Part shown: positions 33,889 through 37,783 of the stretch, one piece after another
How the letters are laid out: every line of letters begins with the position of its first letter
How positions within the stretch are numbered: the stretch's first letter is position 1
The notes under the pieces: model-generated
Seen by the model: only the letters and a program-made list of their open reading frames with translations
Database searches by the model: none
Told to the model about the DNA's origin: nothing
Translations under genes and position numbers: made by a program
Origin: Spiroplasma tabanidicola
GTDB taxonomy: Bacteria; Bacillota_I; Bacilli_A; Mycoplasmatales; Mycoplasmataceae
Direction: 5' to 3'
DNA: 64,000 nt
Assembly: GCF_009730595.1 (NCBI RefSeq)
Contig: NZ_CP046276.1
Coordinates: 1 to 64,000 of the forward strand

Positions 33889-35223
33889 ATGCTAAAAATG
33901 TATGACTCCCTTTCTGGTGAATTAAAAACAATTGATGAATCAAAAGTTCGTATTTATACTTGTGGACCAACAGTTTATAATTATATTCATATTGGAAATG
34001 CAAGACCTTTAATATTATCTGATTTAATTGTAAGATTTTTAGAATTTAAAGATATTAAGTATAAATATTTATTAAATATAACAGATATAGATGACAAAAT
34101 AATTGATAAAGCTATAGCAGAAGGAGTATCTGAAATTGATATTGCAAAAAAGTATAGCGAAGCCTTTTTAAAAGATTTAGAAGATTTAAATATAAAATTA
34201 CCAACTAAAGTAATACCTATTTCTTCAAAATTATTAGAAATAATTGATTTTATTGAAGTTTTAATAGATAAAAAGCATGCCTATGAAGTTGATGGTAATG
34301 TTTATTTTGATATTTCTTCATTAGCAAACAAATATGGAGAATTATCAAAACAAAAAAAAGAAGAATTAAATATCGGTGCTAGAGTTGAAGAGGATAAAAA
34401 TAAAAAAAATCCTGATGACTTTGTTTTATGAAAAAAAACAGATAAAGGAAAAAAGTGACTAGCAAAATGAAGTTATGGTAGACCAGGATGACATACTGAG
34501 TGTGCTTTATTAATAGATAATTTCTTTACAAAAACTTTAGATATTCATATTGGAGGAATTGATTTAAAATTCCCTCATCATGAAAACGAGCGAATTCAAT
34601 ATATAGCAAAAAACAATAAAGAAGTTGCATGAGTTTGAGCACACAATGGTCACTTATCAATTAATAATGAAAAAATGTCTAAATCATTAGGCAATACAAT
34701 TTTAGTTAAAGATTTTATAAAAAAATATGGAGCAAATGTGTTAAGATTTATGTATTTAAATTCTAACTACAGACAACCATTAAATATTAATCAACAAACA
34801 ATTGATCAAGCAATTGATTGAAATACAAAAGTATTAAATCTTTTAAAAACTGCAAACTGAAAAATTGCTATTAATGAAATTACATTAAATAACGAAACAC
34901 CAATTGATGATAATTTTGATTCATACAAGTACATAACAAAGTTTAAAGAATTTATGAATAATAATTTAAATACACCAATGATCATAACGCTACTTGATGA
35001 AATGGCAAAAAATATTAATAAGCAATTTAAAAATAAGGTTTTAGATAGAACTTTAGATAAATTTAACGCTATTTTAAGTACACTTGGTTTTAAATATGAA
35101 CTACCAAAAATTGATAAAAAAACACAAGCTAAATTAAAAGAGTGATTAGAATCAGTTGCTAATAAAGATTTTGAAAATGCAGATAATTTAAGAGATGTTT
35201 TGAAAGAAGGAGGAATTATTTAA
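33889..35223 (+). CDS. cysS: Cysteinyl-tRNA synthetase
   Basis: Charges tRNA-Cys. The 444-residue product has the zinc-site CGPTVYN, a class I HIGN signature (YIHIGNARP), GWHTEC and HHENE, and the KMSKS loop ([10 protein letters not shown]). Many TGA codons are Trp, for example WVWAHNGH. The downstream rlmB begins one base after the stop. Confidence 0.95.
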
Positions 35224-35224
35224 G

Positions 35225-35941
35225 ATGCCAAATTTAGTTTTTGGAAAGAAAAACATTTTTAGCATTATTAAAAATTTTCCTAGTTTAGTTGAAAAAATAT
35301 ATGTTGTTAAAGGGTTTTTATTTGATAATGAAATTTTTGAAGTTGTAAAAACTAAAAATTTAAAATTAGAATTCATTGAAAACCAAAAGTTTCAGAAAAT
35401 ATTAAATCAAAAAGTAAATCATCAAAATATTATTGCTTATGTAAAAGACTTTGAATATAGTCAATTACAAGATTTAATAAGTAATAAAGAAAATCAAACA
35501 ATTTTAGTTTTGGATAGAGTGCAAGATCCTAATAACTTTGGGGCAATTATAAGAAGTGCTGTTTTATTTGGAGTTGATGGAATAGTTATTTTAGACAGAA
35601 ATCAAGTAGATGTAACAGCTGCAGTTTTAAAAACTTCAGCAGGAACAGCATACGAAATTGCCATTGCAAAAGTTGCAAACTTAGCAAATGCACTTAATGT
35701 ATTAAAACAAAAAGGTTTTTGAGTTTATGCATCTTATTTATCAAATGATGCAACAAATATTGCTGATTTAAAATTTGAAAACAAAAAAGTAATTTTAATA
35801 GGAAGTGAAGGCAAAGGTTTATCAAATAAACTAGTAAGTCACTCTGATTTTAAATTTAAAATTAACACAACAAATATTATTGATTCACTAAATGTATCTG
35901 TTGCTACTGGTATAATTCTTTTTAAAGCAAGTCTTGACTAG
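35225..35941 (+). CDS. rlmB: 23S rRNA 2'-O-methyltransferase (TrmH/SpoU family)
   Basis: Methylates a ribose in 23S rRNA (G2251 in E. coli). The 238-residue product has SpoU motif 1 (LDRVQDPNNFGAIIRSA), motif 2 (LIGSEGKGL) and motif 3 (NVSVATGIILF), which form the knotted SAM site. mrnC, which separates cysS and rlmB in Bacillus, is absent. It overlaps the next gene by 8 bases. Confidence 0.92.
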
Positions 35942-36548
35942 CAACAGATTAAAGCATGCAATTTATTTTATATTAAAAGAACGATTTATTTTCTTATCAA
36001 ACGAAGAAATAATTACAATGACAGAAAATACAGAAAGAATAATGCAAAAAGTTCATAGAAACTCGCGGTATAACTTGTTTGAGTTAAGTGAAGAATTAAC
36101 TCCTTTTTATGAAGCTGTTAATGAAATTTCTCATGTCTATGACAAAAATAAATGCAGTAATTTTTTTGTGTTTTACTATGTAAGATTGCGGCAAAGATTA
36201 TTAGATTATACAAGATGAATAACTAGAAAAAATAGAGATTTATTTAAAACAGAAAGAGTTATTCAATACGAAGATGGAACAACTAGTTATGAAATTATGA
36301 TAGAAAGATATTCGTATGAAAACTACCAAGTTGAAAATCTCAAAAAAATAAGTGATAGTACTTTTATTGCTTTTTGTAAAACTTACCCAAACTACATTGT
36401 AATTTTAGCAACAAGTCTTTATCTAAAAGGATATGCAATTAAAAAAATCTGTATGATGTTAGGAATTACACGTAGAGATTATGATAAAATAATTAAGAAT
36501 TTTAAAAACTTTTTAATTAATTTACTAATTGAAGATAAAACTATATAA
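35934..36548 (+). CDS. Divergent sigma-70-like factor in the sigH position
   Basis: A 204-residue protein. Residues about 75-100 ([20 protein letters not shown]) resemble sigma region 2 (core binding/-10 melting), and residues about 165-190 ([20 protein letters not shown]) resemble the region 4 helix-turn-helix. Gene order rlmB-this-rpmG-secE-nusG equals Bacillus rlmB-rae1-sigH-rpmGB-secE-nusG. The start is a TTG at 35934 that overlaps rlmB; no good ATG exists, so the start is uncertain. It may be an alternative sigma factor. Confidence 0.7.
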
Positions 36549-36574: not shown

Positions 36575-36736
36575 ATGGCAATTTCATCAAATAAAAAAAT
36601 CTTGTTAGTTTGTGAAGAATGCCTATCAAGAAATTATAGCTTACAAAAAAGCACTATTTCGCAAAGAGATAGATTAGTTATTAAAAAGTTTTGTAATAAG
36701 TGTAATTTAAGAACTGTTCATAAGGAGTCAAGATAG
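36575..36736 (+). CDS. rpmG: Ribosomal protein L33
   Basis: A 53-residue L33 with the two zinc-binding pairs CEEC and CNKC retained. It sits before secE as in Bacillus rpmGB. secE starts 2 bases after its stop. Confidence 0.92.
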
Positions 36737-36738
36737 TC

Positions 36739-37140
36739 ATGAAAGATAAAGAAAAAGATCTAGATTTAAAAGCTCAAAAGAAAGCTGAAAAAGAAAAAAC
36801 TAAGGCATTAAAAGCAGAGGCTAAAGCAAAAGAAAAAGCTGAATTCCAAAAAATTTATGATGCACTTGATGCAGATAAAGGTTTAACAAAAGAAGAAAAA
36901 ATTAAAAAAGCAAGAGCGGCAAAAGTTAAAGAACATCGTAAAAAAATTAATGTTAAATTAGCTTTAAAAGAAACTCCTATTAAAATGCTTAAAGAAATTA
37001 ATAAAATAAAATGAAGCGGAAGAGCAAATTTAGGTCAAAAATTTTCTTGAGTTATAATATTTTTATTGATATTTATTTTGTTCTTTTATGGTGTAGATAC
37101 AGGATTAAGATATTTATTTGCAGAGATAAAAATTATTTAG
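36739..37140 (+). CDS. secE: Preprotein translocase subunit SecE
   Basis: Small membrane subunit of the SecYEG channel. The 133-residue product has a long charged Lys/Glu/Ala N-terminal region (about 90 residues) and then one transmembrane segment (VIIFLLIFILFFYGV) near 107-121. This is longer than the single-span SecE of Bacillus (about 60 residues). TGA at 37012 and 37048 are Trp. Confidence 0.85.
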
Positions 37141-37153
37141 GAGATAAACAAGC

Positions 37154-37783
37154 ATGGAAAATAAAGAAATATCATCCCTTACTGAAGAGTTAGAGTCTTT
37201 TAAGGGTCAGTGATTTGTTATAAATTGTAATAGTGGACATGAAGACCGTGTTAGAGGAGATTTATTACAAAAAATAGAAACTTCAGGTTTGGAAAATGTT
37301 ATTTTTGACATTAGAATTTCTAAGTCTCAATTTATGGGGAAAAATAATAAATTAACAGATAAAAATAAATACCCAGGTTATTTATTTATTAATATGTTAA
37401 TGACTGATGAAACTTGATTTATAGTACGAAACACTCCAGGGGTAAATGGGTTTATTGGATCTTCTGGAAAAGGAGCAAAACCTTTTCCAATAACAGCAGA
37501 AGAAGTGGCTAGAGTTTTATATAGTCAAACAGAAAACGCAAAACAACAAGGACAAAAAGCAACTCAAACAACTCAACCAAAAAAAGAAAAGGTTTTATAT
37601 ACAGCTGATTTCAAAGTAAAAGATGTGGTTATTGTAAAAGAAGGTCCTTTTGCTAATACTGAAGGTCAAGTATTAGAAATGGATTATGAAAAGGGAGTTG
37701 CTGTAGTAAATATTGAGTTATTCGGAAGAATCACTCCAACAGAATTTGAATTTTTGAACCTTGATTTAGCTTACAAAGCATAG
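37154..37783 (+). CDS. nusG: Transcription termination/antitermination protein NusG
   Basis: Binds RNA polymerase and modulates pausing. The 209-residue product has the NGN domain (WFVINCNSGHEDRVRGDL, then PGYLFINM and VRNTPGVNGFIG) and a C-terminal KOW motif (VKEGPFANTEGQVLEMD). A Gln/Thr-rich linker joins them. Follows secE, the standard pair. Confidence 0.94.

Follow-up and report, generated by a model that had tools for sequence, protein, structure and literature searches.

What does a gene do that occupies the sigH position in the chromosome of a mollicute? The question arises within a 64,000-nucleotide stretch of Spiroplasma tabanidicola DNA (the window; positions 1 to 64,000 of NZ_CP046276.1), where an open reading frame (ORF), here termed SigX, lies between rlmB and rpmG-secE-nusG. 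One sigma factor was counted in genome analyses of S. eriocheiris and S. mirum (PMC9666726), and likewise in Mesoplasma florum (PMC7745072), while putative, mostly species-specific alternative sigma factors of mollicutes have been mentioned in passages that do not name them (Fisunov 2016; PMC5138195). No description of this sigma factor in Spiroplasma was found among the papers listed by searches of open-licence full texts. SigX is, we are confident, a sigma factor of SigH descent. Quite probably it is a ComX/SigH-type alternative sigma factor that descends from the SigH of walled Firmicutes and switches on genes for DNA uptake and recombination. A preliminary description, made from the letters of the window, had proposed a sigma factor and is upheld in this; the likely function of SigX is what is new here.

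The occupant of the sigH slot

The gene order in the window is cysS-rlmB-X-rpmG-secE-nusG, X being the SigX gene. The features of the locus are the following:

35934..36548, forward strand: SigX, diverged SigH-type sigma factor, 204 amino acids (aa), genetic code 4, TTG start; its one TGA codon, W95, is decoded as tryptophan
36039..36254, forward strand: sigma region 2 part of SigX, residues about 36-107 (profile 36-110 against SigI1 in the PDB; hhalign with SigH; helices H51-68 and H77-99)
36324..36542, forward strand: sigma region 4 part of SigX, residues about 131-203 (VIA-align to 3mzy; hhalign)
35934..35941, forward strand: overlap of the rlmB stop with the SigX TTG start, 8 nucleotides (nt), of equal length in three relatives
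33889..35223, forward strand: cysS, 5' of rlmB
35195..35941, forward strand: rlmB, bordering the sigH slot on its upstream side
36575..36736, forward strand: rpmG, downstream neighbour of SigX
36739..37140, forward strand: secE
37154..37783, forward strand: nusG

The comparison covered the source genus (g1, 20 genomes), other genera of its family (g2-g11 and g42) and other families (f3, f4 and f7). A search with the single sequence recovered a SigX ORF in the sigH slot of 17 of the 20 g1 genomes, and a 14-row profile recovered SigX in the slot of all 20. The gene is open in 17 and broken in three (truncated in G016, frameshifted in G017, split across frames in G018), and the identity of the window SigX to most of the genus is 19-28%. 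The ratio of nonsynonymous to synonymous substitution rates (dN/dS) is 0.305, 0.146, 0.219, 0.226, 0.318, 0.165 and 0.174 for seven pairs. An eighth, G015-G017, whose G017 copy is the frameshifted one, has 0.338, and two of ten pairs yielded no SigX value. For comparison, the ten pairs give 0.09-0.28 for rlmB and 0.03-0.09 for nusG. Conservation and selection analysis, which had been proposed as a check on the sigma-factor assignment, gives a slot ORF in 20/20 genomes and a dN/dS of 0.15-0.32 for all but one of the eight pairs with values. The ORF at 35934-36548 is a genuine gene, conserved in position and maintained by purifying selection.

Within the family, a sigma-like ORF occupies the rlmB-rpmG slot in g1, g3, g5, g6, g8, g10, g11 and g42. 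The slot is empty in g2, g4 and g7 (in the 3/7, 1/1 and 4/4 genomes opened, respectively), and the SigX profile gives no match in the remaining four g2 genomes. In families f4 and f7, a protein that exceeds the TIGR02937 cut-off lies between rlmB and secE-nusG; in f3, a 220-aa ORF after rlmB is followed by different genes and matches no NCBIfam model at E up to 0.01. The g9 slot (G154, L062:1725-2468) is filled by a 248-aa ORF that shows no sigma signal and, even at E up to 1, matches nothing in NCBIfam, and weak SigX-profile matches lie away from the slot in G108 (E 8.4e-4) and G168 (E 6.5e-4). Among walled relatives of the class, all 20 best SigH-model loci lie directly after rlmB, 14 of them with rpmG and/or nusG downstream, which supports the earlier statement that the gene sits where Bacillus has sigH.

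The preliminary description also supposed that a TTG start inside rlmB might limit translation. This finds no support, as the same 8-nt overlap with the rlmB stop occurs in three relatives, with an ATG start in G006 and G010 and a GTG start in G003. Because the overlap recurs with these other start codons, it suggests that translation of rlmB and SigX is coupled. Near the expected start of SigX in G001 (L012:1483) and of the comEA-position gene in G000 (L217) there is no ATG, GTG or TTG, and ATT may serve.

A promoter-like element and joint gene loss

In g1, a com-box-like element, CGAWW, precedes genes of DNA uptake and recombination, mostly 22-28 nt ahead of the start codon and just 5' of the Shine-Dalgarno sequence (SD). 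It stands upstream of the comEC operon in 17 of the 18 g1 genomes read, G010 having CGTTT instead; in G006 it lies at a greater distance from the SD, and in G001 it is exactly TACGAATA. Before ssb-dprA it is found in 18/20 genomes, with CGACA in G014 and none in G006 (G013 was judged by coordinates only). Before recA it lies within 22 nt of the SD in 18/20, G005 having CGACA and G007 CGATG; shuffled letters give a mean of 1.17/20 and a maximum of 6/20 within that distance. The recA prediction was set before the family-wide search, yet after six recA sites were already known. Among the 12 g1 members outside the first pattern search, the element occurs at recA in 11 and at ssb in 11. Of eight g1 genomes read at ruvA(B), seven carry it, the Pfam run having been made on the G000 protein and the others assigned by likeness. 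A G014 site first taken for ruvA fronts another ORF, and ruvA of G014 was not located. Two of eight g1 genomes, G009 (L285:1012-1494, minus strand) and G012 (L294:1012-1494, minus strand), have the element before recU, divergent from recA, and Pfam RecU matches these two proteins at E 1.1e-35 and 5.4e-38.

Outside g1, the element precedes recA in 3/3 genomes of g3 and in 0/12 genomes of g2, g4 and g7, the genera with an empty slot. The start of G083 recA was placed by eye, and recA of G189, G195 and G154 was excluded from these counts by SigX state. At the same place before recA, g2 and g4, which have no SigX, show another conserved string, CCTTAATA or near it (L375, L380-L386); similar CTAA strings precede recA in g6 and g7.

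The neighbourhoods of all 16 sites of the element with an SD in G000 and of all 23 rows in G012 include, in both genomes, recA, ssb-dprA, ruvAB and the comEC operon. Pfam confirms the element-bearing genes (RecA 3e-131, SSB 1.3e-7, DprA 5.7e-26, RuvB 1.2e-49), with RuvA weak at 0.0011, under the cut-off. Several other G000 and G012 sites fall within coding sequence or ahead of unrelated genes such as nusA and rpsS. The T tract 5' of the element may partly be the terminator of the preceding gene. The window itself contains no match to the element with an SD.

A second line of evidence is the fate of ComEC, sought with PF03772 and by reading of sequence stretches. PF03772 proved insensitive: ComEC of G011 and G069 (one frame) and of G004 (C-terminal half) was missed and recovered by tblastn. 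For g1, ComEC is present in 17/17 genomes with open SigX (one long ORF in 15, one frame in G011, the C-terminal half only in G004). Where SigX is broken, G016 has ComEC in two frames and a split comEA-position gene, and G018 has no ComEC candidate. SigX and ComEC are both intact in 5 of the 14 g5 genomes (G077, G095, G137, G143 and G178); in the seven with broken SigX, ComEC is broken (G105, G123, G151 and G200) or unmatched (G175, G195 and G199). Inserted transposase-like ORFs interrupt the slot region of L069 (G175) and L205 (G195) in that genus. Over g1 and g5, open SigX goes with intact ComEC in 22 genomes and with broken ComEC in 2, and broken SigX with intact ComEC in 1 and with broken or unmatched ComEC in 9 (Fisher p 1e-5, uncorrected for relatedness). 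ComEC also accompanies SigX in g3 (3/3) and in G126 (g6). The 0/12 PF03772 result in g2, g4 and g7 is weak, because the model misses true ComEC, and was not counted as evidence.

Other genes follow the same course. Both G016 and G018 have a shortened ssb. In G016, SigX, the comEA-position gene, comEC and ssb are all broken and an in-frame TAA interrupts recA; SigX, comEC, ssb and recA are all retained in the closely related G008. For g5, recA is free of stops in 5/7 genomes with open SigX (G095 and G189 have in-frame stops) and in 1/7 with broken SigX (G195). On these sequence comparisons, control of DNA uptake and recombination by SigX in g1 is likely.

Several observations weigh against such control. 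The SigX-bearing genera g5, g6, g8, g10, g11 and g42 lack CGAWW at recA in 16/16 genomes, g10 and g42 having CGTT at that position; in these genera, either the sigma factor may read a different sequence or recA may have left the regulon. The ssb gene of g2, g4 and g7 shows the element in 2/8 genomes. A search of eight whole genomes shows no enrichment of the element with an SD, each genome having 11-23 such sites and 32-56 of the reversed pattern; it is the locations of the element, not its frequency, that are informative. ComEC is intact in G017 with a frameshifted SigX and broken in G120 and G189 (g5) with an open one, and 4 of the 9 double losses (G018, G175, G195 and G199) are scored from the absence of a PF03772 match. 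A SigX ORF stands without a PF03772 match in G098, G159, G140, G162, G192, G183, G186 and G198, and beside a mere ComEC fragment with stops in G115. DprA is kept in all 12 g2, g4 and g7 genomes, and its presence does not follow SigX. The comEA-position ORF has no NCBIfam match, and no ComG traffic ATPase was found: PF00437 passed its cut-off once in 60 genomes, with a fragment that contains stops.

These points leave room for a sigma factor that controls something else, with CGAWW serving another regulator and the joint losses reflecting general genome decay. The six SigX-bearing genera without the element at recA would fit such an arrangement, as would the decay of both SigX and competence genes in the large g5 genomes. 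The element, however, is ComX-box-like and stands in a -10-like place; the operons that it fronts are controlled by ComX, SigH or sigma20 elsewhere; and the contrast between G016 and its close relative G008 involves SigX, comEC, ssb and recA alike. We regard this explanation as unlikely, and control of uptake and recombination genes by SigX as the preferred reading.

The element also precedes genes of other kinds. In five genomes (L278:1530-1811 of G012, L267, L268, L280 and L287), it fronts a gene whose product of 94-95 aa resembles class II bacteriocins and carries a double-glycine-like leader (..VVGGK.. or ..IVGGK..); Pfam gives no match for the G012 product. Another small gene with the element, encoding 101-108 aa (L321:1676-1978, minus strand, in G000; L308:1653-1976, minus strand, in G012) lies upstream of mraZ-like and mraW-like ORFs, and its G000 product has no Pfam match. 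Another is a SocA/Panacea-domain protein (PF13274, E 7.7e-8 in G000; L323:1475-1975, minus strand, L310 and L273), next to which the following long ORF in G000 and G012 resembles pgk. The remainder comprise a 250-aa family (L299:226-975, L283 and L292), a 418-aa family (L325 and L311) and a large secreted-like protein (L322 and L309); the L299, L325 and L322 proteins have no Pfam match.

Descent and fold of SigX

Taken alone, the window protein stays under every sigma-model cut-off, and its match to sigma-70 regions emerges at the family level. Its best NCBIfam match, to SigI, ends at residue 157 and scores 23.7 bits (E 2.8e-5) where the cut-off is 244; no Pfam sigma model matches it, and the PDB search gives SigI6 at E 0.0016. 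In its own genome of 1,284,335 bases, the sole Pfam Sigma70_r2 match lies at 858748-858960, taken as the housekeeping sigma factor; the SigX gene is therefore invisible to the ordinary model. Across the family, TIGR02937 is matched by 13/14 g1 members (best 2.2e-12) and Pfam Sigma70_r2 by 12/14 (best 2.3e-6), both at E up to 1, and slot proteins from one further genus and two further families exceed the TIGR02937 cut-off of 42.9 bits (L054 43.8, L056 51.9, L394 45.1). An hhalign comparison of the g1 profile with eight SigH proteins of walled relatives spans columns 23-201, covering sigma2 and sigma4 (97.3%, E 1.9e-11). The weak region 2 and region 4 signatures of a highly diverged protein, as first described, are borne out by these matches, and the profile search against sigma-70 that had been suggested agrees. 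A diverged protein of the sigma-70 family occupies the sigH slot.

For the window protein, the best-matching curated models are those of SigI, which raises the question of whether SigX is instead a SigI-type sigma factor that does not descend from SigH. NF006175 is matched by 14/14 g1 members (E up to 1, best 2.3e-10), and the search of the PDB with the g1 profile is led by SigI1 (E 4e-6) and SigI6 (E 9.2e-6). These PDB matches, however, span region 2 alone, whereas SigH 3mzy (E 9.3e-5) is matched over both domains, positions 49-206; the SigI scores of the window protein end early and far below cut-off, as given above; the g5 and g42 slot proteins match SigH-type models; and the location is the sigH slot, with no RsgI-like flanking ORF in the window by inspection. 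A SigI origin is distinctly unlikely. In the tree, a branch supported at 97/98 keeps 31 slot proteins together on its one side; the inner order is unsure owing to long branches, and eight further sigma rows stand among the SigH rows, which do not form one clade. SigX is not filed in TIGR02859, the equivalog of spore SigH, because its cut-off of 294.8 bits is not reached: with E up to 1 allowed, 3/14 members give a match (the best at 0.0041), and 0 of 149 class genomes pass the cut-off.

Structure prediction, another suggested check, speaks on the whole for a two-domain sigma2/sigma4 fold. The AlphaFold 2 (AF2) model of SigX has two helical domains (mean predicted local distance difference test score, pLDDT, 83.7; predicted template modelling score, pTM, 0.48). 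Sigma factors by title make up the majority of the first 50 PDB matches of Foldseek, the first being 9a4r_A, titled RPSH-RPOB (E 1.3e-3); RPSH is B. subtilis SigH, and the match is a point of likeness between that factor and SigX. On the opposing side, the template modelling score (TM-score) of the best match is only 0.30, and none reaches E 0.001. With VIA-align, residues 131-204 superpose on Fusobacterium nucleatum SigH 3mzy with Z 8.8 and a root-mean-square deviation (rmsd) of 1.9 over 73 aligned residues; for the sigma2 part, sigma factors score no better than dynein or designed repeats. Because such unrelated helical proteins match the sigma2 part equally well, the predicted fold supports sigma4 more than sigma2: the two domains and the sigma4 half stand, and the sigma2 half does not set sigma factors apart.

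A protein with a sigma fold might also act as a DNA-binding regulator or competitor that does not start transcription. Region 2 is strongly diverged, with no Pfam region-2 match in the window protein, but the Sigma70_r2 matches of other members and the retention of both domains make this very unlikely. That SigX is a decaying relic with no present function, as its breakage in 3/20 g1 and 7/14 g5 genomes and its low identity within g1 might suggest, is highly improbable given 17/20 open genes, dN/dS mostly 0.15-0.32 and losses that coincide with losses of other competence genes. Frequent pseudogenisation in relatives, named at the outset as grounds against the sigma-factor reading, is seen in part, at these rates; since the losses are mostly accompanied by loss of ComEC, RecA or Ssb, they fit the loss of a pathway, not a spurious gene.

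SigX among known regulators

The proposed mode of action starts with SigX being translated together with rlmB. Its sigma2 domain is predicted to bind core RNA polymerase, and sigma2 and sigma4 would direct the enzyme to promoters with the com-box-like CGAWW as a -10 element just ahead of the SD. The predicted regulon comprises the comEC operon for the DNA channel, ssb-dprA to protect single strands as they enter, the recombination genes recA, recU and ruvAB, and several genes of unassigned role. SigX would act overall as a switch for DNA uptake and recombination akin to streptococcal ComX and to SigH of lactobacilli and staphylococci. Computation shows the homology, the synteny, the selection, an element that these operons share in one genus, and the joint losses; from this we infer RNA polymerase binding, recognition of the element, conditions of activation and transformability of the cells.

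Streptococcal ComX/SigX acts on comEA, ssbB, dprA and coiA via TACGAATA, which follows a T tract and in most cases lies some 20 nt ahead of the ATG, and a variant of its box precedes a bacteriocin operon (PMC6001120). The G001 comEC operon carries the same sequence, whereas the element in g1 is mostly CGATW. The streptococcal comX gene is sited elsewhere in the genome, not in the sigH locus (PMC3364868). In Lactobacillus sakei and Staphylococcus aureus, the sigH locus is of the B. subtilis kind, as is that of SigX. SigH of L. sakei activates late com genes and dprA, with little activation of recA, and SigH identity within a genus can be below 20% (PMC3364868); S. aureus SigH has been linked to competence (PMC3486894). 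In contrast to these two, SigX occurs in genomes in which no ComG traffic ATPase was found, and recA, recU and ruvAB appear within its predicted regulon. B. subtilis SigH serves spore formation and affects competence through ComK, not by acting directly on uptake genes (PMC3364868).

Among mollicutes, Mycoplasma genitalium sigma20 (MG428) is an alternative sigma factor that regulates recA, ruvA and ruvB and is linked to antigenic variation (PMC9262362). The comparison with SigX covers the regulated genes. The predicted SigX regulon would combine those of streptococcal SigX, L. sakei SigH and sigma20: channel, ssb-dprA, recA, recU and ruvAB.

A broader picture is a serious if tentative possibility. 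Spiroplasma-type mollicutes may have a regulated state of natural transformation, similar to streptococcal competence and run by a relic SigH. This one sigma factor would switch on a pilus-free uptake channel, Ssb-DprA and RecA/RecU/RuvAB, to which one clade would add a bacteriocin-like peptide of the double-glycine type and a gene ahead of mraZ (division). This state would be ancestral in the order, and several lineages would have lost it along with recombination genes. If the proposed role of SigX is true, it would explain the frequent loss of comEC, ssb or recA in lineages that lost SigX, and a predicted uptake and recombination regulon under a SigH-type sigma factor would open regulated gene exchange in these bacteria to direct tests.
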